Source of the DNA: a virus
DNA: 27,433 bases
IMG/VR virus record: IMGVR_UViG_3300045978_000135
Location: 1-27,433 of that record
Strand: one strand, 5' to 3'
Within the stretch, counting starts at the first letter, position 1. The number at the start of each line of letters is the position of its first letter. Positions 8,042 through 24,730 of this stretch are shown here, piece after piece. A model generated the notes under the pieces. It searched no databases. It saw only the letters and a program-made list of their open reading frames with translations, and was not told the DNA's origin. A program made the position numbers and the translations under genes.

Positions 8042-8975
8042 CGATCACCCTTCCTTGTGGCCGCTGTGGCCGCTTCGGCTGTGGCTCGGGCCGTCGAGCG
8101 ACGTCAAGTTCGCGTCGGGCTTCGGGTCGACTTGCGACTTGGTCGGCATCTTGACGGTGCGCGACTGGTTCGTCTCTTCGATCGAGGGGAGGTTGGTCGC
8201 CGGCGGTTGCTTGTCGCGCATCGAAGTTCGCCTTCGGGAAGACGTCGTAGATCGGACCGCTGAAGCTCGGGTCGAGCAGCACTCGACCGGGGTGCATCTT
8301 GGCATACCACCGGCACCATGCAAGAGCACGCTCATGCTGGTAGATCGTCGTGCGCCTGGTGACCGGGTTGGTCCGGCCGAAGAAGTAGCCGATGCCGTTC
8401 TGCAGCGTGAAGCCGACGAGGTAGATCGGGTTCGCACCCATCAAGTGCGCCAGCTGAATCGCGAAGCACAGCGAGTTGCCGCCGTGATGGAAGTCCTCGC
8501 GGAGAGAGCGGGGCAGGAACGGCTCCATGATCGCGTATTCGACCTCGCCGCTCTTCTGGTTTCGCTTCGCCCCCTTCAGCTGACGGATGCCGATCTCGGA
8601 GAGACGTCGCTCCTTCCCGCCAACGATGCGCACTTGCCGTCCTCGAGCGACGGAGAAAACTCCGCCGCCGAAGATGCCGCGGTTCACCACGGCTGCGCAA
8701 TCGGTGGAGCATCCAGCGAGGAGGCTTGACTCGGACTTCCAAACGTCCGAGTCAACGACAAGCCAGATGCTGGGCTCCACGGCTCGGAGCGTCCAGTTTG
8801 TTCCGATGACGATGTTGCCTTCAGCAGCTCGGAATCCTGGGGAGTCAACCAGTCCCCCTGCTCCCCCAAAGATGAAGCAACTACGTCCTGCACATGCTTG
8901 TTCAAGCCAGCTCGGATCAGAACCTCGAGAGCTCGGTGCCGGTAGGTGTGCCGCTTTGAAACCAGGACAGAGCAT
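8016..8975 (-). CDS. MptE/DUF115-like sugar or phage protein
   Basis: 319 aa as the frame stands. Residues about 28-85 carry SCFIFGGAGGL, NIVIGTNWTLR and WLVVDSDVW, and residues about 185-200 carry ANPIYLVGFTLQNG. This order (Gly-rich loop, xGTN strand, VVDSD, then LxG) resembles the Rossmann-like MptE/DUF115 proteins, which are linked to glycan or motility-accessory glycosylation and occur in phage sugar clusters. The start at ATG 8975 has GAGGAG upstream but lies 292 bases inside the CgeB frame. The last 57 residues are Arg-rich, overlap the 58-aa gene in another frame and run 26 bases into portal, so the true end is uncertain. Confidence 0.62.
   Translation of the reverse strand: MLCPGFKAAHLPAPSSRGSDPSWLEQACAGRSCFIFGGAGGLVDSPGFRAAEGNIVIGTNWTLRAVEPSIWLVVDSDVWKSESSLLAGCSTDCAAVVNRGIFGGGVFSVARGRQVRIVGGKERRLSEIGIRQLKGAKRNQKSGEVEYAIMEPFLPRSLREDFHHGGNSLCFAIQLAHLMGANPIYLVGFTLQNGIGYFFGRTNPVTRRTTIYQHERALAWCRWYAKMHPGRVLLDPSFSGPIYDVFPKANFDARQATAGDQPPLDRRDEPVAHRQDADQVASRPEARRELDVARRPEPQPKRPQRPQGRVIGGRPRNAR
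8045..8221 (-). CDS. Unknown 58-aa hydrophilic protein upstream of portal
   Basis: ATG 8221 has GAAGG nine bases upstream; the stop lies three bases before the portal start. The product begins MRDKQPPATNLPSIEE and ends SGHSGHKEG, Ser/Pro/His-rich and probably disordered. In the same bases the upstream gene's frame gives an Arg-rich sequence typical of a wrong frame, so this frame looks like the coding one here. It could instead be the true C-terminus of the upstream protein reached by a +1 frame change. No family recognised. Confidence 0.55.
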   Translation of the reverse strand: MRDKQPPATNLPSIEETNQSRTVKMPTKSQVDPKPDANLTSLDGPSHSRSGHSGHKEG

Positions 8976-10030
8976 ATGCGTCCGATCTCCTCTGCTTCGT
9001 TCGTGTGCTCGAGGTAGTAGCGAACCAGCTCGACGAAGCGTTCCTTCGTGGCTGCTCGAGGTGCCATCGGGAACATGCGTTCGAGTTCGCTGCGCGTATC
9101 GTCACTGACGACGAGCGTCCCGCACGCGAAGAACTCGAACGCTCGCGGATTGACGTGGCTCGCCGGAAGGTTGAAGTCGTTCCAGAAGCCGGTGCCTTCC
9201 TGCGCCGGCATCTTCGTGCACAGCTGCGCACCGTTCGGAATCGGCATGCTCGCCATGCGGCGCTGAATCCGCGTCGTGTAGCACTCCCTCGTGATGCCGG
9301 GGTGCCGGTGCACGTTGAGCCCGACGACGCAACCGGCGTAGTGCTTCGGATGGTCTTCGTGCCCGACCCATTCCTTCGAGCCCTTCGCAACCGGCCTTCC
9401 GCCCTTCGGCCAGTAGCGGACGTCGGCGCCTGGAACAGCAGCTTCGACAGCTCGCAGCCACGGCTCGCGCGGAATCAGTGTCGGGTTCCCGAGGAAGAAC
9501 GCTGGCACGTTGCGCGCTTCGTAGCCGCGCCGCACGAACAGATCCTCGTCGGCGCACGGCGGGAGGTAGAAGACTCCGCCGCGGTGCGCAGCTGCTCGCG
9601 CCTGCTTGTGAGTCTCGAGCGTGCACCAGTCCATCGAGAACACGAAGTCGAACCTCGGCGAGTAGCGCGCGGTCTCGCCGACCTCGTATGGCTCGTCGCA
9701 GAGGTAGACGGCCGTCGGGATTCCTCGACGCCTGAACTTCGAGAGGAAGAACTCGTTCGACGCCGCCCGACCGTGGTGACACCAGATCAGATCCGGCTTG
9801 TGCGAAACGATCGCGTCGGCGAGCGCCGCTGCGTTCCCCTGCCCGCGCACGCTGTAGGGACCGCCGCCCATCGCGCGACGAAGCGACGAGATGTCGACGA
9901 TGCTGACGTTGCAGTGCAGATCGCGGAAGCCCTTGATCCACCCACGACGCCAGTCGTCGGAGTAGATCAGGCCGGCGTCGTCCGCGATCACAATGCGCGG
10001 CGAACGGGTCTTCTCGATCACCCGCGTCAT
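8684..10030 (-). CDS. CgeB-family glycosyltransferase
   Basis: 448 aa from ATG 10030, which overlaps the previous stop as ATGA; an upstream in-frame ATG at 10063 is less likely. The layout fits CgeB/GT-B-type sugar transferases: N-terminal Rossmann half with KPDLIWCHHG, IPTAVYLCDEPYE and FSMDWCTLETH; C-terminal half with FFLGNPTL, RYWPKG, VGLNVHR, and the donor-site signature RAFEFFACGTLVVSDD (about residue 315), ending in the family's closing HTYRHRALEVL helix. The remaining 75 or so residues overlap the next gene in another frame and may not be functional. It would move a sugar from an activated donor to an unknown acceptor. Confidence 0.82.
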   Translation of the reverse strand: MTRVIEKTRSPRIVIADDAGLIYSDDWRRGWIKGFRDLHCNVSIVDISSLRRAMGGGPYSVRGQGNAAALADAIVSHKPDLIWCHHGRAASNEFFLSKFRRRGIPTAVYLCDEPYEVGETARYSPRFDFVFSMDWCTLETHKQARAAAHRGGVFYLPPCADEDLFVRRGYEARNVPAFFLGNPTLIPREPWLRAVEAAVPGADVRYWPKGGRPVAKGSKEWVGHEDHPKHYAGCVVGLNVHRHPGITRECYTTRIQRRMASMPIPNGAQLCTKMPAQEGTGFWNDFNLPASHVNPRAFEFFACGTLVVSDDTRSELERMFPMAPRAATKERFVELVRYYLEHTNEAEEIGRICSVLVSKRHTYRHRALEVLIRAGLNKHVQDVVASSLGEQGDWLTPQDSELLKATSSSEQTGRSEPWSPASGLSLTRTFGSPSQASSLDAPPIAQPW

Positions 10031-10635
10031 CGCCACTCGGCCAGCATCTGGTTCACGCGGCACGACGGGACCGCCCAGCAGTTCGCGCCGACGGTGCGCA
10101 GCTGGTCACGCACGGCCGTCGCCAGGTCGTCGCCGTCGAGGTCGAGCGCGGCGCCGCGAACGGTGCCCATCGACGTCCGCTGCAGCATGAAGAACTTCGA
10201 CGGCACCGGCTGACGCCACTCCCACGGATGCGCGGCGCGCGTGTTCGCGGCCTCGTCGTCGGGAGCGAACGTCATCGCGCACATCGGCGCTCGGACCATC
10301 GGCAGCTGCATCTTGCCGAACCACTCGCGATCGACGATCCGGTGCGTCACCGGAAGGACGACGGTGTATTGGAAGTCGCTCGTTCGCAAGACCTCCATGA
10401 CGATCCCGTTGTAGCCGAGCTTCGGATCGACGCAGGTGATGACGAGGCCGGAGCGGTCGTAGACCGACCTTGCCTCCGCGACGATCGCACCGACCTTGTC
10501 TTCGATCAGCGCCTGCCCGATCGCGACGTTCACGACGTGATCGACCGGCGTATGGTCCTTGATCGAACGGAGGCAATCCGCGAGGAGGTGCAGCTTCTCG
10601 TGCGTCACCGGGACAACGATCTGGATGATGCTCAT
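10027..10635 (-). CDS. GT-A-like (family 2-type) protein
   Basis: 202 aa from ATG 10635, which overlaps the previous stop as ATGA; the open frame upstream of it is a shadow of the zinc-ribbon gene. The start IIQIVVPVTHEKLHLLADCLRSIKDH is a typical first strand and helix of GT-A glycosyltransferases. Later come VVLPVTHRIVDREWF and PVPSKFFMLQR. A clear DxD metal motif is not obvious, so it may be a divergent or non-catalytic member. It is embedded with CgeB and MptE-like genes, supporting a role in the same sugar pathway. Confidence 0.6.
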   Translation of the reverse strand: MSIIQIVVPVTHEKLHLLADCLRSIKDHTPVDHVVNVAIGQALIEDKVGAIVAEARSVYDRSGLVITCVDPKLGYNGIVMEVLRTSDFQYTVVLPVTHRIVDREWFGKMQLPMVRAPMCAMTFAPDDEAANTRAAHPWEWRQPVPSKFFMLQRTSMGTVRGAALDLDGDDLATAVRDQLRTVGANCWAVPSCRVNQMLAEWR

Positions 10636-10838
10636 GGAGTTGGCTTCTTCTGCTTCAGGAGTTCGTCTTGCGCCTTCCGGCCGTTGATCGCCACGAAGAG
10701 CTGGTTGCAACGACGACTGCAGAAGTCGGGCTTGTTGATGCCGAGCCTACGCTCCCGCCGGCGACGCGCAGCTGGAACCTTGAACTTCCCGCGGCACTGC
10801 ACACACACCGCGTCGATCGTCTCCCACGGCTGGCTCAC
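10632..10838 (-). CDS. 68-aa zinc-ribbon protein
   Basis: GTG 10838 overlaps the stop of the upstream gene (GTGA), and the stop overlaps the next ATG. The product contains CVQCRGKFKV, a basic stretch RRRRERR, then FCSRRCNQLF and a Lys-rich tail, giving two cysteine pairs that could bind one zinc, similar to HNH-associated or MYM-type ribbons. It may bind nucleic acid; no specific function can be named. Confidence 0.65.
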   Translation of the reverse strand: MSQPWETIDAVCVQCRGKFKVPAARRRRERRLGINKPDFCSRRCNQLFVAINGRKAQDELLKQKKPTP

Positions 10839-11332
10839 AGGAGCCACTCGTTGCCGGCCTTCTTCGGCGGCGGCACCGGCGCCGGCTGCTCGACGGGATC
10901 GGCGAGCTCGCCCTCGGGGATCTCGACCTCGTCCGGCCGCTGACGGTAGCGCGGCACGCGCTGCGGGGCCCGCGACGTCGCCCCCTCCTCGGCAGCCATC
11001 GTCTCGCGGATCTCCTGCGCGCTGCGCGCGAACTCTCGGTAGTCGCTCCCGTGCGTGATCGGTCCGGCGTTCTGCGGCGTCGGCGTGCCGCTGAAGCTCT
11101 CGATGCACCGCTGCAGGTAGACCTCGAGCCCGTCGACGGCCTGGTCGATCCACTCCGCTTCGCCGAAGTCCTGGCGGAGAGAGTCTGCCGCGGCGGCTGC
11201 CGCTCGCTTCACCTCGGGGATGCGGTAGCCCTTCTTCGGCGTCGCTCGAGCGCGCTGCTGCCCTACCTGGGCTTGTTGCGGCCCCACAGGTCGTCCGTTG
11301 ACGAGGATGCGTCGTTGGGGTTGTTGTTCCAT
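10835..11332 (-). CDS. Unknown 165-aa protein after terminase
   Basis: Begins MEQQPQRRILVNGRPVG. The frame is open further upstream but is an Arg-rich shadow of terminase there, so ATG 11332 is taken; it overlaps the terminase end by 70 bases and lacks a strong ribosome site. The middle (about 55-85) is helical and acidic (FGEAEWIDQAVDGLEVYLQ), and the end is Pro/Glu-rich. The N-terminal Gln-rich region looks disordered. No family recognised; minor packaging or head factors often follow the terminase gene. Confidence 0.6.
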   Translation of the reverse strand: MEQQPQRRILVNGRPVGPQQAQVGQQRARATPKKGYRIPEVKRAAAAAADSLRQDFGEAEWIDQAVDGLEVYLQRCIESFSGTPTPQNAGPITHGSDYREFARSAQEIRETMAAEEGATSRAPQRVPRYRQRPDEVEIPEGELADPVEQPAPVPPPKKAGNEWLL

Positions 11333-12945
11333 ATGTCGTGCTGCTGATGCTTCGCGCGATCGCGAGCGTCCTGTTGGTTCCGCGGGTTGAACTTGCCGTC
11401 GATCGTCGGTGGCTCCATTCGCTTCACGAACGCGGGCGACCACGAAGACGGCGGCGCGGGCATGTAATACTTGCCTTCCTTGTCCTGCTTGTCGAGGTCG
11501 CTCACCGCATCGGGGATGTCGTCGTGCGCCGAGAACGGCCATTCCGTCATCTCGTCGAACATCGGCTTCCACTTGTGCGTGTAGCTCTCGCGCAGCGACC
11601 GAGCGAAGTAGATGTCGCCGCGTCGGAACCGAGGCTCTGCAGCCTCGATTCGCATGTCCTTGACCTCTTGGTTGCGACCTTCGATCTCGACGAACTGCGG
11701 GCGCACAAAGGTCTGCCGGCGGATCTCCTCGAAGAGCGACATGAGGAGTTCCTTGTGCGTCACCTTCTCGACGGCGACACCCTTGCACTCGATCCCCTGG
11801 TAGCGGCTCCACAGGTCGCAGCAGATGCGGCAGCTGTCGCTCGGCTTCCACCGACCGATCACGATGTCGCGAACGTAGGCGACGCGGTTGCAGTCGAGGC
11901 TGACCACCCAAAAGACCGTTCGGTCGGCTCGCTGCGTCTTCTTGTCCTCTGCGATGAAGGCCCAATCGGTCAGGATGTAGGTCCACACCGCGGTCGGGAT
12001 GTCGCGATCCTCGATCACGCGGAAGTAGTCGGCCTTGAAGATTTGATCGTCGCCGGTCTGCGGACGGTTCTCGTAGAAGCAGGCGTAGAGGCGCGGCGTC
12101 TGCTTCAGCTTGCGGTCGGCGATGAACGCGCGCGTGAGACGCTTCGGGAAGAACAGCTCCGTCGGCTCGTTGCTCGCAGGGTCGACGATCGGATCGCACC
12201 ATGCGTGCTTGCTGATCTCGAAGGTCCGAGCGATCGCCTCGTCCTTCATGATGCGGCAGTAGATGTCGGCGTAGTGGTGGAGCGTGCCGATCATGAACAG
12301 CTTCGTGCCGGGGTCGAGCTGCGACTGCACCTCACCGAACCAGTTCCAGAGCTTGTCGATCGACTCCGGCGTCTGCGTGTTCTCCTGCGAGCACACGTCG
12401 TCCATGATGACGACGTCCCAATGCGCGCCGGTCTGGACTTCGCCGACGCCGGCGGCGGCGAGCGTCGGGTCCTTGACACCCTTGCGCGTGCGCAGCGCCG
12501 AGTAGAAGACACCGCTGCCTTCCTTCCACTGCTTGCCCTTGTGGACTCCGAAGCGGTCTTTGAACCACTGCGAGTCGATGATCTTCATGATCTCGCCGAC
12601 GAACTTCTGCGCCTGGCGAGCAGTCTCCGAACAGATCAGGATTCGGATGTTGGGGTCGCGCGCGATGAGCCACGCCGCTTGCCCGATCGTGAACACCTGC
12701 GACTTGAAGGAGCCGCGAGGCCACAGGGCCATCTTGGACTTGTAGATCGTGATCTCGGGGTTGTCCGGATCAGGATCTCCGTTCCAGTGAATCAGGTCCT
12801 GGCAGTAGCGGCCGTGCGGCTGGTATTCGGCGTCCGGCGCCGCGCCGCTGTCGCGCACGAAATCGAGGAAGCCCTCCTCTGAAAGGTAGAACTCCCGCTC
12901 GCGCCGGAGACGTTCGCCACGAATGTCTTCGGCGCTGACGGTCAC
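11263..12945 (-). CDS. terL: Terminase large subunit
   Basis: 560 aa. Starts at GTG 12945, seven bases after GGAGG and overlapping the previous TGA; the open frame upstream is a shadow. The ATPase half has a Walker A-like loop PRGSFKSQ (about residues 76-83), a Walker B VVIMDD (about 178-183, with Asp in place of the usual Glu) and a coupling motif FMIGTLHH. The C-terminal RNase H-like nuclease half shows YILTDWAF, FVEIEGRN and HDDIPDAVSD, supplying the acidic triad. It cuts and pumps the genome into the prohead through the portal. The gene is separated from a possible small subunit by four sugar/methyl genes. Confidence 0.93.
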   Translation of the reverse strand: MTVSAEDIRGERLRREREFYLSEEGFLDFVRDSGAAPDAEYQPHGRYCQDLIHWNGDPDPDNPEITIYKSKMALWPRGSFKSQVFTIGQAAWLIARDPNIRILICSETARQAQKFVGEIMKIIDSQWFKDRFGVHKGKQWKEGSGVFYSALRTRKGVKDPTLAAAGVGEVQTGAHWDVVIMDDVCSQENTQTPESIDKLWNWFGEVQSQLDPGTKLFMIGTLHHYADIYCRIMKDEAIARTFEISKHAWCDPIVDPASNEPTELFFPKRLTRAFIADRKLKQTPRLYACFYENRPQTGDDQIFKADYFRVIEDRDIPTAVWTYILTDWAFIAEDKKTQRADRTVFWVVSLDCNRVAYVRDIVIGRWKPSDSCRICCDLWSRYQGIECKGVAVEKVTHKELLMSLFEEIRRQTFVRPQFVEIEGRNQEVKDMRIEAAEPRFRRGDIYFARSLRESYTHKWKPMFDEMTEWPFSAHDDIPDAVSDLDKQDKEGKYYMPAPPSSWSPAFVKRMEPPTIDGKFNPRNQQDARDRAKHQQHDIWNNNPNDASSSTDDLWGRNKPR

Positions 12946-13667
12946 TGCACCACCTCCCAATCGAAGCGCAGCGGCTTCCCGATCACCTTTGCGACGAACT
13001 CGCGCCAACCGAGCTTCTTCAGTCGCGTCATCTTGGCGATGTGGATCGCCTTGTTGCGCTTCACGCTCCGATCGAGCGACGTCACCTGCGCATCGGGCAC
13101 TTTCTTGTTCCCGTGGTGGAACCAGAACCAGAGGTCTTCGCGCGTGCGATTCACCATCGACTTCTGGATCACGCGCAGCAGCTGCACGTCGGACCACCCC
13201 TTCGCGCCGCAGTAGTCCTCGTCGTAGCCGCCCAGCTTGTGGAAGTCCTCGAGCAGGATCAGGTGCACGTTCGGCGACGTGTGGTCGAGCTCACTGGTCG
13301 CGATGTGGCGCAGCGCCGGCCGGAACATCAGGCCGGGACGAAGGAACCGCGACTCTTCGACGAGCTTCTGCAGCATGCCGTCGGCCAGTGTCATGTCCGG
13401 GTCGATGAGCATCAACCTCTTCGTCGTCGCCAGGTGCGCAACGAGGTTGCGGGCCCCTGGTTGGTTCCAGGGGATGTCCTTCTTCACTCGAGCGAGCCGG
13501 ATGCCTTCCAGCTGCGGGACCTCTGCCGGCGGCTTCCCAGCGTCGTCGACGACGATGACCTCGACGCACGCGCGCCACTCCTCCGGTTGCGCGAGGAACC
13601 TCTCGAACCAGAAGGCGAGCATCTTCGGCTGCCCGTAGGTCGAGAACCCGATCGTCAGCTCACGCAT
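12942..13667 (-). CDS. Family 2 glycosyltransferase (GT2)
   Basis: 241 aa, ATG 13667 with GGAGG five bases upstream. GT-A fold signs in order: ELTIGFSTYGQPKML (first strand), VEVIVVDDAG (donor strand), NQPGARNLVAHLATTKRLMLIDPDM (the DxD-type metal site is DPD, about residue 93), then FHKLGGYDEDYCGAKGWSDVQLL, a typical acceptor-side ED/D motif. It would transfer a sugar from a nucleotide donor. It lies directly between the methyltransferase and terminase genes with overlaps on both sides, so it is co-expressed with packaging. Confidence 0.85.
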   Translation of the reverse strand: MRELTIGFSTYGQPKMLAFWFERFLAQPEEWRACVEVIVVDDAGKPPAEVPQLEGIRLARVKKDIPWNQPGARNLVAHLATTKRLMLIDPDMTLADGMLQKLVEESRFLRPGLMFRPALRHIATSELDHTSPNVHLILLEDFHKLGGYDEDYCGAKGWSDVQLLRVIQKSMVNRTREDLWFWFHHGNKKVPDAQVTSLDRSVKRNKAIHIAKMTRLKKLGWREFVAKVIGKPLRFDWEVVQ

Positions 13668-14199
13668 GACGCCTCCACAGAGTCAGGTGCCGCGCGTGGC
13701 GCGTCGCGCGGTGCTCCATCGTTCCCCACTCGGAGAGGGTCTTGTCGAAGACGTCGGGCGCTCCGGCGAGCTGCGTCTCCGCGTGACGGTCGTGCTGACT
13801 CGGGATCGCGGTCACGATCCACTTCGCGCGCTTCGCCCACTCGATCATTCCCAGCGGGTCCTTGACGTGCTCGAGGGAGTCGGCGAACAGCGCGACGTCG
13901 ACGATCACCGATGACGGGAACGTCGAATACTCGATCACCGCGTGCGGACACATCCGGCGAGCCATGTTGATCGCAGCGACGTCGATCTCGCTTCCCATGC
14001 ACTTCCAACCGAGGCGCAGCGCGATCTGGTTCAGGATCAGCCCCTCGCCGCAACCGACCTCGAAGACGCTCTTGCCGTAGCCGTCGCCGATGAACTCGGC
14101 GAGTCGAACGAGGAGGTCGTCGACGTGCTTCGCGTAGTCCGTTCTGGCGTCCGAGAACTCGGCGAAGTGGTAGGCGCCGCGTTGCTGATACTTGCTCAT
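13660..14199 (-). CDS. Class I SAM-dependent methyltransferase
   Basis: 179 aa from ATG 14199, which overlaps the previous TGA (ATGA). Motif I is VFEVGCGEGLI (about residues 45-55), followed by GSEID (end of strand 2) and ALFADSLEHVKDPLGMIEWA, as in UbiE/Methyltransf_11-type enzymes; later IVTAIPS and HLTLW. Members modify small molecules, sugars or lipids, and are frequent in polysaccharide clusters. Sitting between two glycosyltransferases, sugar O-methylation is plausible but not shown. It overlaps the GT2 gene downstream by 8 bases. Confidence 0.82.
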   Translation of the reverse strand: MSKYQQRGAYHFAEFSDARTDYAKHVDDLLVRLAEFIGDGYGKSVFEVGCGEGLILNQIALRLGWKCMGSEIDVAAINMARRMCPHAVIEYSTFPSSVIVDVALFADSLEHVKDPLGMIEWAKRAKWIVTAIPSQHDRHAETQLAGAPDVFDKTLSEWGTMEHRATRHARHLTLWRRHA

Positions 14200-14831
14200 G
14201 TGTGAGGCCTGAACTCGAAGAGTCTGTTCTCGCGCACGTTCATCTCGATCGTCTTGAAGCGGCCTGCGGGGACCTTCGAGCCCATCAGGTGGAGCGCGAG
14301 CGGAAGCCACAGCTGATCGCGAACGACGCCGGACTCGATGATCCCCTCCATCCATGCGGTCTGCAGATCCTCGACCCACGGCGCGTCGCAGCGGCGGAGG
14401 ATGATCCCGCACTCCCACAGGCCGAAGTTCTTCGGCAGCTTGTGCTTCTTCAGGATGTCGAGCGCGCGGTTCGCCTGCTCCTCGTTGATCTTCTTCCGAC
14501 CGACGCACGCTTCGATCTCGACGTAGGCACACCTGCGCGCGGCGTGCCTGCAGATCGCAACGTCGGCGTCCTTCAGCTCGCTCTCGACCCACTCGTGCAG
14601 ATCGTGAATCGGGATCGCCGGCGAGATGTTCCCGTCCATGTAGACGGAGTAGTCGGCGTAGTTCGGCGCGTTCGTGATCTTGTAGTAGCGGTTCCAGAAC
14701 GGCGCGCGCTCCCTCTTCACCGCGCCAGCGATGCAGGTGTAGTCCGCGTGCTCGCAGAACTTGGCGGGGAACTTCGGCTTGTCGTAGCCGTTGTTGACCG
14801 CGTGATAGAAGGTCGTCGAGGTCTGCTTCAC
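14196..14831 (-). CDS. DUF616/TOD1-like glycosyltransferase
   Basis: 211 aa from GTG 14831, overlapping the previous stop (GTGA). Matches the bacterial DUF616 (TOD1/MUCI70-type) layout: RYYKITNAPNYADYSVYMDGNI (about residues 50-70, with DGN taking the DxD position), then a DADVAICRHAARRCAYVEIEAC region, the KLPKNFGLWECGIILRRC stretch and SGVVRDQLWLPLAL near the end. The domain is related to glycosyltransferases. Its acceptor is unknown. Context among GT2 and methyltransferase genes supports sugar transfer. Confidence 0.72.
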   Translation of the reverse strand: MKQTSTTFYHAVNNGYDKPKFPAKFCEHADYTCIAGAVKRERAPFWNRYYKITNAPNYADYSVYMDGNISPAIPIHDLHEWVESELKDADVAICRHAARRCAYVEIEACVGRKKINEEQANRALDILKKHKLPKNFGLWECGIILRRCDAPWVEDLQTAWMEGIIESGVVRDQLWLPLALHLMGSKVPAGRFKTIEMNVRENRLFEFRPHT

Positions 14832-15586
14832 TTGAGTCGGTGCGCTCGCATCCACTTCTTCAGATCGGAGAGGAGTTCCGGTGTTCCGGCTTTGACGTGC
14901 AGCTCGTTCGCGGTCTGCGCCTTCAGGTGCCGGACCCAGCTTCGATGCACCACCTTGAACGGCGTCGCGCCGTAGAGCTGGCGAAGGATCGCGGCCGTCG
15001 CGTCGTCGCTGCCGTAGTTCGTGAACGACGGATTGAACAACGGCCAGCCCCATCGCGGTTCGATCGCGTTGATGACGCGCCGCGGCACCAGCCAGCAGAA
15101 CGCGGACACCTGGCCGACGCGCTGCGCCGGCAGCTCGGCCTGGTGCGGTTGTCGCGCCTCCGGCGTCGCGGTGACGTCGGTGCGCGGCGAGAGCACGTAG
15201 GGCGGCGAGACTTCCTCGAGCAACTTCACCAGCCAGTCACGCTGCGGGAACTGAAGGTCGTTGTTGAAGACGAGAACGTGGTCAACCGGCCACCGCTCGG
15301 CGAGGAGCGCGAGGTTGATGCCACGGTTCACACCGACGCCGAAGCCGTTGTTCTGCGTGTCGATCAGCTGCTCGACCGGCTCCCACGCGCACGCGCTCGG
15401 CTGCTGCTGCGCCAGCGCATCGAGCTTCTTCACGTCGATCGGCCGCTTCGCCGCGTTGTTGACCGCGAGCACGCGGACGTGCACGCCGACCGGCACCTCG
15501 CACTGCATGAGGCCTTCGATGCAGTCCTCGGTCATCGAGACGAGCTGCTCGCTGCCGGTGAACGGTGTGATGGCGAGGATGTTCAT
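14828..15586 (-). CDS. Family 2 glycosyltransferase, WbbL-like
   Basis: 252 aa, ATG 15586 overlapping the previous TGA (ATGA) with AAGGA close upstream. Visible motifs: NILAITPFTGSEQLVSM start, VLAVNNAAKR, QNNGFGVGVNRGINLALL and VLVFNNDLQFP (about residue 110), the NND triad that replaces DxD in rhamnosyl-type GT2 enzymes, followed by SAFCWLVPRRVINAI and a FTNYGSDDATAAIL acceptor-site region. It transfers a sugar from a nucleotide donor. It lies directly after the HTH protein and before the DUF616 gene. Confidence 0.85.
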   Translation of the reverse strand: MNILAITPFTGSEQLVSMTEDCIEGLMQCEVPVGVHVRVLAVNNAAKRPIDVKKLDALAQQQPSACAWEPVEQLIDTQNNGFGVGVNRGINLALLAERWPVDHVLVFNNDLQFPQRDWLVKLLEEVSPPYVLSPRTDVTATPEARQPHQAELPAQRVGQVSAFCWLVPRRVINAIEPRWGWPLFNPSFTNYGSDDATAAILRQLYGATPFKVVHRSWVRHLKAQTANELHVKAGTPELLSDLKKWMRAHRLK

Positions 15587-16320
15587 GCTTCCTTCTCGAA
15601 CTCGAGCTGCGGCACCGCATCGAGCGTAGCGCCGCTGGCGGTCTCGATCTCGATGCGCCGGCGCTGCTTCTTCCGCTCGATCTCGAGGATCGCGTCGATC
15701 TCGGCTTGGCGGTTGTCTTCGATCTTGTGCGTCACCTCGACGCGATGGATCGCCTGGTCGACGATGCCGAGCGACTGCAGCACCTTGACGACGTCGCGCT
15801 GCACGCCGAAGTAGCCCTTCCAGTCGCCGGCGGCCTTCAAGCCTTCCATCGCGCGCTCCGCGGCGATCTGCACATGCCCGGCGATCGTGGACAGGCGAAT
15901 CTGCGTCACCTGCGCGCCGATGCGATCCGCATACTGGTCGCGCACTTCGCGCACCCTCACGGAGGAGATGCCGAGCTCGCGGCTGATGATCTCCGGCCGG
16001 AAGCCTTCGTCGCAGAGCGTGACGATCATCGCGATCTGCTGCGGCTCGAGGAGCTGCGCGAACCACGCGGCGCGCTCCGGAGCGAGCACCTGCTGCAGCT
16101 CGGCCCACATCCTCTTGCCGAGGTCGCCGAGCGTCAGCGTCGTCGTGATGCCGTCGTCCGCGTCGGGCGGCGTCGACATCGCACCGGAGTCGTGGACGAG
16201 GTCCACCAGCTGCGCCAGCGTGAGGCCTGCCGCTTCCGCGGCGGCTTCGAGCTTCTGCCTTGCGGCAGGGTCGACGAGCGCAGAGGCGGCCGTCGCTGCT
16301 TGATCGCGACGGCGCCCCAT
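15583..16320 (-). CDS. HTH protein, possible terminase small subunit
   Basis: 245 aa. Residues about 105-130 form a helix-turn-helix (GFRPEIISRELGISSVRVREV), and the centre is helical with AERAMEGLKAAGDWKGYFGVQRDVVKVLQSLGIVDQAI. The C-terminus is a charged coiled-coil-like stretch with IEDNRQAEIDAILEIERKK. An HTH, a helical oligomerisation-like core and an upstream position in the packaging block suit a small terminase subunit that recognises the genome. No family motif is decisive, so this is inference. ATG 16320 follows the preceding stop by one base. Confidence 0.55.
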   Translation of the reverse strand: MGRRRDQAATAASALVDPAARQKLEAAAEAAGLTLAQLVDLVHDSGAMSTPPDADDGITTTLTLGDLGKRMWAELQQVLAPERAAWFAQLLEPQQIAMIVTLCDEGFRPEIISRELGISSVRVREVRDQYADRIGAQVTQIRLSTIAGHVQIAAERAMEGLKAAGDWKGYFGVQRDVVKVLQSLGIVDQAIHRVEVTHKIEDNRQAEIDAILEIERKKQRRRIEIETASGATLDAVPQLEFEKEA

Positions 16321-16321
16321 G

Positions 16322-16522
16322 TCACTTCTCGACGACGTTCACCTGCACCTGCTCGATCGTGCCGCGACAGTCGTGGTTGATGCCCTTCGGCATCACCTGT
16401 CGCAGCGTCGAACGTCGCGCCGGCCTGATGCCGAACGCGACGTGATGGATCTCGCGCAGCTCGCGCACGCGCATGCAGGTTTCGACTTCGATCGTGAGAA
16501 CGACTTTGCGCATCCGAGGCAT
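16322..16522 (-). CDS. Unknown 66-aa basic protein
   Basis: Begins MPRMRKVVLTIEVETCMRV and ends VQVNVVEK. ATG 16522 is chosen because AGGAG lies six bases upstream; a GTG at 16543 would extend it by 7 residues but includes that ribosome site. It alternates beta-like strands with basic stretches (RPARRSTLRQ), so a small beta-rich fold is likely. No family recognised. It follows the Acb2-like gene after 30 non-coding bases. Confidence 0.6.
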   Translation of the reverse strand: MPRMRKVVLTIEVETCMRVRELREIHHVAFGIRPARRSTLRQVMPKGINHDCRGTIEQVQVNVVEK

Positions 16523-16552
16523 CGTTGGCTCCTGAGTCGGCACAGTGGCCGA

Positions 16553-16837
16553 CTACTCGTCGGTCGTGGAATCGCAGGCGATCGACTGGTTCGCCCACAT
16601 CCGCGCCTCCTCGAGCGCGGTGAGCGCGCACGAGAGACCGCGGCCAGGCGAGCAAACGTCTCGGAGTTCCTTCGCCAGCGCAAGGGTCAGCTCGGTCACC
16701 TTCGCATGGCGTGCGACGCGCTGTGGCGTCTTCGGCGGGTGGTAGCTGAAGCGGTTCTCGAGTTCCGCGTCCGTCGGCTTCGCCGGAGGAGCAGGCCGCT
16801 TCGGCCAGTCCTCCGGGTTCTCGGTTCCGTTGCCCAC
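16553..16837 (-). CDS. Acb2-like anti-CBASS protein (DUF7681-like)
   Basis: 94 aa from GTG 16837, seven bases after the preceding stop; an open stretch before it is a shadow. Residues 28-36 read NRFSYHPPK and residues 71-87 read ALTALEEARMWANQSIA. This pair is the hallmark of the Acb2 (T4 Vs.4/DUF7681) family: a short hairpin start with F-x-Y-H-x-P and a closing L-E-E-A-x-M-W-A-N-x-x-I-A helix, about 90 aa. Acb2 sponges cyclic di- and trinucleotides made by CBASS, and related hairpin proteins act on Thoeris signals. Here the central segment reads CSPGRGLSCALT. Binding ability is not shown. It lies two genes into the late block. Confidence 0.82.
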   Translation of the reverse strand: MGNGTENPEDWPKRPAPPAKPTDAELENRFSYHPPKTPQRVARHAKVTELTLALAKELRDVCSPGRGLSCALTALEEARMWANQSIACDSTTDE

Positions 16838-16844
16838 GGCCCGC

Positions 16845-17261
16845 TCAGTTCGTCGAGGGGGCCGCGGTGCCGGCAACCGGCGTCGCGCCGTCGACGGGTC
16901 CGGCGACCTGTTGGCGCGGCTTGCTCTCGATCGAGATCCGCGGCTTCGTCTCGACGACGATGCGCACCATCTCGACGCCGCGCCAGATCATGAGGGTCTT
17001 GCCGGCGAGCTTCTCGCCGTTGGCGCGGAGCGCCTTCTTCGCTGCGATCGCCGTGTCGTAGCCGGTGAAGTCCGGCAGCGGCACGAGAGCCCCTTGCGGA
17101 AGGGTCTTGTGGCCGGCGCCGATCACCTCGTAGACGCGGAAGTCGCCGCCACCGTCGTCGAACAGCTTGAAGCGACGCGGCTTCGCGCGCTTCTTCTTGC
17201 CTTCGCCAACGGGGGCATCGGTGGGGGTCACGGGAGCGGGGGGAGATTGGGTCGCGTTCAT
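16845..17261 (-). CDS. Unknown 138-aa protein with basic N-terminus
   Basis: ATG 17261 overlaps the previous TGA (ATGA). The first 30 residues are disordered and then Lys/Arg-rich (GKKKRAKPRRFKLF). A compact core follows (about 28-120): GDFRVYEVIGAGHKTLPQGALVPLPDF, TAIAAKKALRANGEKLAGKTLMIWRG and MVRIVVETKPRIS, which reads as mixed alpha-beta. The C-terminus is disordered and Pro/Ala-rich. No family recognised; the basic N-terminus might bind nucleic acid. Confidence 0.65.
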   Translation of the reverse strand: MNATQSPPAPVTPTDAPVGEGKKKRAKPRRFKLFDDGGGDFRVYEVIGAGHKTLPQGALVPLPDFTGYDTAIAAKKALRANGEKLAGKTLMIWRGVEMVRIVVETKPRISIESKPRQQVAGPVDGATPVAGTAAPSTN

Positions 17262-17803
17262 GGTTCGTTGCTTGGAGCAGACCACAGTGGAGTCTTCAAG
17301 GGTGGCGGTTGTTCTTTTTCACGCGCCTTCGACTCCTCGAGCGCCTGACGGGCCGCGCTTTCCTCCGAAGAAGCAGCTTCGTCGGCCGCGGTAGGCCTTC
17401 CGACCTTCGATCCGATCATCGGGTCCATGCCTCCCTGGTCGAGATACTCGTCGACGAGCGTCTTCGACGGGTTCTTGATGCCGAGGCGAAGGATGATCTG
17501 CTGCACGACCATCGCGCGCTGCTCCGGCGTCGCCTTGTGGCACGGTCTCGCGTGTCTGCGAACCGGGTCAGGCCTCATCGACATCGCCTGGACGATCAGA
17601 TCACGGTAGGCCTTCGCCTGGGAAGCTGGGTCGGCGATGTTCGAGATCGGGTAGGCCTCGTCCGAGACCTTCTTCACGAACATCAGCAGGTAGGTCACCA
17701 GTCTCGAGATCGAGTAGTGACACCCTTGCTTCGCCATTCGATGCTGGAACGCCGAGAGTTCAGCGAACGCATCACTGTTCATCGCGATGGTGTGTTGCGG
17801 CAT
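17258..17803 (-). CDS. Unknown 181-aa protein, first gene of leftward block
   Basis: ATG 17803 has AAGGGCGGC just upstream and no open gene before it, so it opens the leftward block. The product is helical: residues about 8-60 (SDAFAELSAFQHRM, ISRLVTYLLMFVKKV) and a second helical part about 90-125 (ATPEQRAMVVQQIILRLGIK, KTLVDEYLDQGGMD). The last 50 residues are Glu/Ala/Pro-rich. It lacks a recognised family. The first position suggests a regulatory or small structural role, which is speculation. Confidence 0.65.
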   Translation of the reverse strand: MPQHTIAMNSDAFAELSAFQHRMAKQGCHYSISRLVTYLLMFVKKVSDEAYPISNIADPASQAKAYRDLIVQAMSMRPDPVRRHARPCHKATPEQRAMVVQQIILRLGIKNPSKTLVDEYLDQGGMDPMIGSKVGRPTAADEAASSEESAARQALEESKAREKEQPPPLKTPLWSAPSNEP

Positions 17804-22442: not shown

Positions 22443-24458
22443 ATGACTCAAGTCCGCGTCGAGCTCGTTCTCCGTGCCTCGCCATCCGGCTCCGAGCAGT
22501 GGCTCGAGCTGACCGGTGGCGACCCCCGCGGCAACGACACGCTGCACAAGACCGTCTCCGGATGGGCTGGCTGGCGCCGGTGCCCGCAGCTGGGCGTGCA
22601 CAACGGGCAGAGCGCGAGCCGGTATCAGGCGCGCGCCTGGCTGGCTGCGCTGCAGCCGCTCGTCGCGTCGGGGTTGGCGATCGCCTGGGCGCCAGCGGCG
22701 CAGGTGTGGTGTCAGGGACAGCTCGAGGGTTACCGGCGCCGGGAGCTGGACCTCCGCGCCGAGTGCGTGCGCGAAGACGGTGCGCCGTGGCGCGCGGCGA
22801 CCGCCGGCCGGCAGCCGATGCCGCACCAGACGCAGGCGCTCGAAGCGATCGCGGCGCAAGGCGGGCAGTGCCTGCTGACCGACGATATGGGTCTCGGCAA
22901 GACGACGACGGCCGTGCTCGCGTGGCTGTTCAAGGGTGCAGGCCCGAGGCGCGCGCTCGTGATCTGCCCGAAGAGCGTGAAGCTGAACTGGCAGGATGAA
23001 GTGCAGGCCTGCTACGGCGTCGAGGACTCGCAGATTCCAGGGCGCACCGTTCCGCTGATCTACCTGATCGACGGCACGCCAGCGCACCGCGCGAACGTGA
23101 TCGGCTACATGCGAGCGGCGATCGACGAGAACTCGCTCGCGATCGCGATCGTCAACTACGACCTCCTGCGCTCGATGAATGAGGTGGCTTGGCGCACGCT
23201 CGAGGCATGGTGCACGAACCAGTGCGTGATCGCGGACGAGTTCCACTACTGCAAGGATCGTGACTCCAAACGGACGAAGAGCGTGCAGGCTCTGATGTCG
23301 CGCACCGTGTTCCGGCTCGGTCTCACGGGAACGCCGGTGCGCAACACGGTCGAAGACCTCTTCGCACAGATCGAGCTGCTTCGACCGGGAACGTGGGTCA
23401 GCTACCACGACTTCGCGAACCGGCACCTCGTGCTGTCGCAGGTGAAGTTCGGGAACAACAAGCGGCAGACGACGATCGTGCGCGGTGGCAAGAACCTCGA
23501 AGAGCTGAACCGCGTGGTCAACACGCTGCGCATCGGCAGGAAGAAGGAAGACGTGCTGTCGCTGCCGCCGCTGATGAGGACCAAGCCGCAGCTCGAGCTC
23601 GATGGGCTGCACCTCGACGTCTACAAGCAGATGAAGGACTTCGCGCGCGTCGAGCTCGAGAAGCTGATCGGCGGCGCGACGATCGCAAGTGAAGAGCGGA
23701 AGCCGTCCGACGTCATGAAAGACCTCGGCGTCGATCACTTCAGGCATGGCTCGCAGATCGTCACCGGCGCCGACGTCGATCAAGCGATGGGCGTGAACGG
23801 CGCCGTCTCGATGTGGCACCCGCTCGCGCGGTCAGCGGTCGAAGCCGCGATGCGCTGCGAGATGATCGCGCAAGGCTTCCTCTCCGGGCTGCCAGAGCAA
23901 TACGCCGAAGCCGTTGCACCGATGATCGCCGGCAAAGCCGAGCGCGTCGATGGCTACCCGAACGCCTTCGTCTTCCCTGACTCGCCGAAGATGGCGTGGC
24001 TGATCGAGACGGTCGAGAACGAGCTGCGAGATCGCCCTGTGGTGATCTTCTCTCGCTTCAACGCGCCGATCCTGTGGCTCGAGAACAAGTTCTCGACGCA
24101 AGGTGGCGCCGTGAAGCTCGTCGGCTCGATGGACACCGTAGCCAGGCAGGAGGCGATCGACGCCTTCCGCCAGGGGAAGCAGCGGATCATGCTCGTGCAG
24201 GTGAAGCTTGCCGAAGGCTTCAACCTCACCAACGCGAGCGACGTGCTCTTCCTCGGTCGCGACTGGTCGCCGGCGATCAACGCGCAGGCTGAAGCGCGGT
24301 GCCATCGCATCGGCTCGAAGGGGACCGTGAACGTGCAGATCCCGATCGTGCACAACTCGGTCGAGAAGTTCATCGAACGGAAGCTCGCTGCGAAGGACGC
24401 GGACGCGCAGCAAGCTCTCAAGGTAGTCACGCTCCGCGAACTGCTCGAGGCACTGTGA
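22443..24458 (+). CDS. SNF2-type superfamily 2 helicase
   Basis: 671 aa from ATG 22443; a GTG three codons earlier (22434) is an alternative. Ordered SF2 motifs: Walker A DDMGLGKTTT (about 148-157), motif Ia RALVICPKSVKLNW, motif II ADEFH (about 264-268), motif III GLTGTPVRN (about 293-301), and in the second domain VVIFSRFNAP, QVKLAEGFNLTNASDV (motif V) and AQAEARCHRIGSKG (motif VI). The box is DEFH where SNF2 proteins usually have DEAH. The N-terminal 120 residues have no clear motif. Members move along duplex DNA; here a role in replication, recombination or early takeover is inferred. Overlaps the GroES-like gene (GTGA). Confidence 0.88.
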   Translation: MTQVRVELVLRASPSGSEQWLELTGGDPRGNDTLHKTVSGWAGWRRCPQLGVHNGQSASRYQARAWLAALQPLVASGLAIAWAPAAQVWCQGQLEGYRRRELDLRAECVREDGAPWRAATAGRQPMPHQTQALEAIAAQGGQCLLTDDMGLGKTTTAVLAWLFKGAGPRRALVICPKSVKLNWQDEVQACYGVEDSQIPGRTVPLIYLIDGTPAHRANVIGYMRAAIDENSLAIAIVNYDLLRSMNEVAWRTLEAWCTNQCVIADEFHYCKDRDSKRTKSVQALMSRTVFRLGLTGTPVRNTVEDLFAQIELLRPGTWVSYHDFANRHLVLSQVKFGNNKRQTTIVRGGKNLEELNRVVNTLRIGRKKEDVLSLPPLMRTKPQLELDGLHLDVYKQMKDFARVELEKLIGGATIASEERKPSDVMKDLGVDHFRHGSQIVTGADVDQAMGVNGAVSMWHPLARSAVEAAMRCEMIAQGFLSGLPEQYAEAVAPMIAGKAERVDGYPNAFVFPDSPKMAWLIETVENELRDRPVVIFSRFNAPILWLENKFSTQGGAVKLVGSMDTVARQEAIDAFRQGKQRIMLVQVKLAEGFNLTNASDVLFLGRDWSPAINAQAEARCHRIGSKGTVNVQIPIVHNSVEKFIERKLAAKDADAQQALKVVTLRELLEAL

Positions 24459-24730
24459 ACATCCGTCCAACGTGGCATCGCGTTCTCGTTCGTCCCGAAC
24501 CGCCGAAGGACACCAGCGAGGGAGGCATCGTGCTCCCGCAGAGCATGCAGTCGAAGGGCGAGGCTGGCGTCCTGTTCGGCGAGATCGTTGCGATCGGGCC
24601 CGTGAAGGACGAGCGCAAGCTGATCCCTTTCGGAGTCGGTGAGCGCGTCGCCTACGTGTTCAAGGCAGCGCCGAAGTTCGGCGATTGCATCCTGCTCGAC
24701 TTCGAGAACATCCTCGCCGTGGTGCCGTGA
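24455..24730 (+). CDS. GroES-like co-chaperonin
   Basis: 91 aa from GTG 24455, overlapping the helicase stop (GTGA). It matches the Cpn10 layout: IRPTWHRVLVRPEPP at the start, SEGGIVLPQS, then GEIVAIGPV, GVGERVAYVF and a closing FENILAVVP. The section around residues 24-40 (mobile-loop region) is short: LPQSMQSKGEAGVLFG. Co-chaperonins cap GroEL; phage versions such as T4 gp31 help fold capsid protein. No GroEL is in the window, so it would act with the host chaperonin if functional. Alternative: a structural GroES-fold protein. Confidence 0.8.
   Translation: MNIRPTWHRVLVRPEPPKDTSEGGIVLPQSMQSKGEAGVLFGEIVAIGPVKDERKLIPFGVGERVAYVFKAAPKFGDCILLDFENILAVVP

Follow-up and report, generated by a model that had tools for sequence, protein, structure and literature searches.

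Does the short leftward gene that lies ahead of the terminase genes in an uncultured phage encode a protein that traps the cyclic nucleotide signals of CBASS, and if so which of those signals would it be suited to hold? The gene sits in a 27,433-nucleotide viral stretch, here called the window, and belongs to a leftward unit that follows a divergent intergenic region (Table 1).

Table 1. Genes of the leftward unit around the acb2-family gene, in window coordinates
Feature	Coordinates	Strand	Length	Remarks
Gene that opens the leftward unit, past the divergent intergenic region	17258..17803	(-)	181 aa	no named family
gp16845, upstream flank of the slot	16845..17285	(-)	146 aa	precedes acb2 in related phages
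acb2-family gene	16553..16837	(-)	94 aa	starts with GTG; residues 31-88 form the hairpin domain; Pfam PF24729, PHROG 1454, AlphaFold
Small downstream gene	16322..16543	(-)	73 aa	tblastn; retained by some relatives (91% in L098)
Downstream flank, conserved	15583..16320	(-)	245 aa	putative small terminase subunit
Large terminase subunit	11263..13197	(-)		PHROG 38, E 6e-74

A member of the Acb2 hairpin family

The reading frame opens with GTG at 16837 and closes with a TAG ending at 16553, giving 94 residues plus the stop. A TTG further upstream, at 16876, would extend the product to 107 aa, and the GTG is preferred because the syntenic copies in two related phages (L105 and L098) also open with MGNG(T/S) and the preceding stop codon lies 7 nt before it. 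G+C by codon position (0.67/0.54/0.84) is similar to that of the adjacent genes. A preliminary description, made from the letters alone, had placed an Acb2-family protein here, and its coordinates and quoted motifs (NRFSYHPPK, CSPGRGLSC and LEEARMWANQSIA) prove exact.

Two of the checks proposed there, a profile search against the Acb2 family and a comparison of the predicted structure with solved Acb2, come out in favour. The Pfam hairpin family PF24729 (Acb2_Tad1_hairpin) matches the product at E 4.6e-15 with 56 bits, above the curated cut-off of 27 bits and over the entire profile (1-58), and PHROG 1454 matches at E 7e-19. A family HMM from whose training the window protein and its near relatives were left out scores the protein at 88.4 bits, the top of 2000 shuffles being 13.2; the match is far above chance. 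The single sequence gave no match in a PDB search and no NCBIfam model matches it, while a profile of 10 family sequences retrieved the PDB entries for 'Acb2 homolog 43', Tad1 and T4 Vs.4. By tblastn the product finds matches in 271 phage records. One Acb2-like frame of 71 aa, MSITNDELHTRFTYHP...REQSTALTKVEEACFWANAGVARRT, stands unannotated in the diaminopurine-DNA cyanophage S-2L (L008:5016-5231; MW334946.1, about 35199-35414), where it lies between the tail genes S2L_47 and S2L_48 and overlaps the annotated start of the latter.

The AlphaFold model, for which the input alignment held 58 sequences (the window protein and viral contigs), has a mean pLDDT of 91.4, helices at residues 23-29, 38-61 and 66-88, and zero strands. 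Solved Acb2 protomers consist of one short N-terminal helix and two long antiparallel helices (PMC12043709, PMC10419184), and it is this shape, a short helix followed by a two-helix hairpin, that is predicted for the window protein. Foldseek places T4 Vs.4 (Acb2) with bound cGAMP at the top of its PDB matches; the match is weak (E 3.6, TM about 0.5), a common outcome with small helical hairpins, and the leading matches among the viral models of BFVD are mostly proteins labelled Acb2/Tad1 hairpin. Tad1, the Thoeris anti-defence protein 1, shares the two-helix hairpin and hence the joint Pfam family, but carries in addition an N-terminal antiparallel beta sheet (PMC12043709). Such a beta domain is absent from the model of the stand-alone 94-aa window protein, in which 22 residues precede the first helix, and the Tad1 architecture is not found here. 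Family membership as first proposed is therefore supported by both profile families, the predicted fold and the conserved contact residues considered below.

Contact positions and a sub-branch without R48, E67 and R88

In alignment with T4 Vs.4, Y8 falls on Y32 of the window protein, T68 on T73, F82 on A87 and K23 on T48; with PaP2 gp26, Y11 falls on Y32, K26 on T48 and R67 on R66. For T4 Acb2 it is known that Y8A disrupts cyclic dinucleotide binding and that F82C also impairs the protein (PMC12657218), and that T68M leads to weaker binding (PMC12657230). The window protein retains the tyrosine, the threonine and the invariant arginine; the ligand-stacking position of T4 F82 is alanine, as it is in PaP2, and the basic residue of T4 K23 and PaP2 K26 is gone, with threonine at position 48. 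We take PaP2 K26, with which T4 K23 is aligned, to be a cyclic-dinucleotide contact and R67 to have a trinucleotide role. A basic residue at 48 is usual in the family and not universal; it is not treated here as family-defining, and its absence is taken as functional variation among members. All the invariant family positions (R66, T73, W81 and N83) are kept.

Compared more broadly with Acb2 of the Pseudomonas phages PaP2 and PaMx33 and with T4 Vs.4, the window protein is likewise a small stand-alone protein of the hairpin family with the same predicted protomer shape, but its identity with PaP2 Acb2 and Vs.4 is very low, a loop about 20 residues shorter joins its long helices, and the protein begins with a Pro-rich leader of about 20 residues. 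Closer in sequence are the hairpin proteins of actinobacteriophages and Paenibacillus phages (PHROG 1454), which share the pattern NRFxYHPP...SREKSLALTxLEEAxMWANAAIA at 37-50% identity, and whose genes are often beside terminase or portal. These differ in keeping R48, and mostly also E67 and R88, where the window protein has T, G and C.

On this evidence the product of the window gene is very probably a stand-alone sponge of the Acb2 type, trapping cyclic nucleotides of the CBASS kind. If it behaves as solved Acb2 does, its protomers would form a hexamer, the hexamer would hold cyclic oligonucleotide alarm signals, and CBASS or related effectors would be kept off, allowing the phage to complete its cycle.

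The three substituted positions set the protein within a distinct part of the family. In a set of 128 relatives, Arg stands at position 48 in 104 (another residue in 24), Glu at position 67 in 107 and Arg at position 88 in 98, and Arg66, Thr73 and Asn83 are nearly invariant. Seventeen sequences, the window protein included, lack all of R48, E67 and R88, and these form a single clade (support 99/90) on a tree built on 67 columns, in which many other forks are open; one change suffices to explain them. An idea that the three positions form a coupled pocket was dropped, since with a single shared origin the joint loss is one evolutionary event and so provides no independent evidence of residue contact. 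NG86 dN/dS is below 1 in all 10 sub-branch pairs tested, and therefore purifying selection, not decay, acts on the changed version. The middle segment CSPGRGLSC had been singled out as differing from the family pattern. It does depart from the SREKSLA majority, but it is not peculiar to this protein, for the sub-branch relatives carry RGLS, RNLS or RGLA where the window protein has RGLSC, and solved PaP2 Acb2 departs as well, with PGRWLAIG.

An altered signal preference, suspected from that segment, is plausible as judged from sequence. The protein may prefer other ligands than T4 Acb2 does, with a possible lean toward cyclic trinucleotides, as would be expected from loss of the basic residue at the K23/K26 position together with retention of the Arg aligned with PaP2 R67. 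A stronger form of this idea is a re-tuned sponge on the Acb2 fold, which would hold, for example, cyclic trinucleotides only, type III CRISPR cyclic oligoadenylates or the gcADPR of Thoeris, and be of little use against cyclic-dinucleotide CBASS. This is a narrower version of the Acb2-type sponge, so the weights given to the two overlap, and we regard it as a serious but minority possibility. The joint loss of R48, E67 and R88 in a supported branch of 17 proteins speaks for it, R48 being the position aligned with PaP2 K26 and T4 K23, as does the retained Arg. The hairpin-sharing Tad1 binds gcADPR and cyclic trinucleotides (PMC12043709). However, Y32 and T73 are retained and are aligned with T4 residues that are important for cyclic dinucleotide binding, and PaP2 Acb2 itself is without counterparts of E67 and R88, so that neither of these changes necessarily affects binding. 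The roles of K26 and R67 are, moreover, putative.

A variable slot ahead of the terminase

Searches with the terminase and capsid proteins recovered related uncultured phages that make up one clade, their contigs reaching about 49 kb; the capsid protein found no match in bacterial genomes, which were searched for a host. The slot holding acb2 is bounded by gp16845, for which Pfam and PHROG gave no match, and by the 245-aa protein, called a putative small terminase subunit because of where it lies and a weak, below-cut-off match to HTH_23. The true start of the large terminase gene is probably downstream of the listed ORF start. Counted by the terminase search, which is blind to acb2, 10 distinct lineages show both flanks. 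The slot is filled with acb2 in half of these (L094, L096, L100, L105 and L114), remnant-like in one (L098, with a very divergent 74-aa copy) and without acb2 in four (L101, L106, L107 and L111), the surroundings being intact. Further filled slots (L163-165, L168 and L172) were found through the acb2 sub-branch search and stand outside this count. The copy in L114 has Arg at 48 and falls with the common type instead of the sub-branch, and therefore the same slot hosts sponges of different origin. This mixture of filled, remnant-like and empty slots among close phages fits what a counter-defence gene would be expected to show.

L098 is the closest relative phage, its portal, scaffold-region and capsid genes being 100% identical to those of the window, but its region from terminase to acb2 has diverged, marking a mosaic boundary. 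Its acb2-like copy (L098:5445-5669) is called a remnant because it scores just 16 bits with the family HMM, lacks R66, T73 and W81, has no match in a Pfam search, and yet occupies the slot position and shares the start. In L175 (4334-4816) two acb2 copies stand in tandem, the second without the invariant R66 and T73. Such copies raise the thought that the window gene too encodes a sponge in decay, one that has lost ligand binding, which may be the state of the L098 copy. This is very improbable, given that the window copy keeps all the invariant positions and that dN/dS between sub-branch pairs is below 1.

An Acb2-type sponge thus remains the favoured reading, and its place among packaging genes needs comment, as the preliminary description had found that location odd for an immunity gene and had taken it to suggest late expression. 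The packaging neighbourhood stands, but the oddness largely disappears, for the slot is conserved in the clade and elsewhere, too, a terminase or portal gene is often next to an Acb2 gene. In a raw tally of 105 genes immediately next to Acb2 genes on other viral contigs, terminase, portal and head-morphogenesis proteins are the commonest known families, and Acb2 genes of Nergal, Schomber, L002 and L003 are likewise associated with packaging genes. Late expression is not to be assumed, since acb2 is the third gene of the leftward unit, counted from the divergent intergenic region, and comes before the terminase; a promoter scan of the minus strand ahead of the operon gave no sigma-70-like site. 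That the gene encodes an accessory packaging or head protein, kept for its place beside the terminase, is the least probable of the readings and is rejected, for although the slot before the putative small terminase is conserved and many Acb2 relatives have a terminase, portal or head gene next to them, acb2 is missing from several close relatives with intact surroundings, the nearest sequence relative of the window protein (L166) adjoins a RecT-like gene and a DNA methylase as read from its ORFs, and the T4 and PaP2 genes sit in non-structural gene runs.

Other genes were seen in passing. Tad2-like (PF11195) genes directly adjoin Acb2 genes in 2 of the 105 neighbours, which suggests small counter-signalling clusters. 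Within the window, glycosyltransferase-like and methyltransferase genes (PF13524, PF00535, a weak PF04765 and Methyltransf_23; 8684-15620, minus strand) lie in two intervals, one from portal to terminase and the other from terminase to the putative small terminase, an HNH endonuclease gene (PF13392; 2387-2797, minus strand) directly follows the major capsid gene, and a GroES-like co-chaperonin (Cpn10, E 1.1e-8; 24299-24730, plus strand) lies in the rightward block just after an SNF2-type helicase gene.

What the sub-branch offers

Overall the window gene is a genuine new member of the known Acb2 family, in a sub-branch with altered putative signal-binding residues; the analysis shows its membership, its predicted fold, the conserved contact positions, a sub-branch under purifying selection and the variable slot. 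Bacteria can make Acb2 sponges a trigger of defence, as in Panoptes (PMC12657218). A speculative and rather unlikely extension is that the R48/E67/R88 set was lost once and that this changed which alarm nucleotides are trapped, possibly letting the sponge escape decoy sensing of the Panoptes kind while keeping some anti-CBASS range, with the copies lacking R66 and T73 (L098 and the second of L175) as further tuning steps. Taken alone, the window gene adds one more ordinary member to a family that has annotated examples in many phages. Acb2 sponges help determine whether CBASS stops a phage, and a supported sub-branch with changed putative ligand positions and a variable slot supplies natural variants for tests of sponge specificity.
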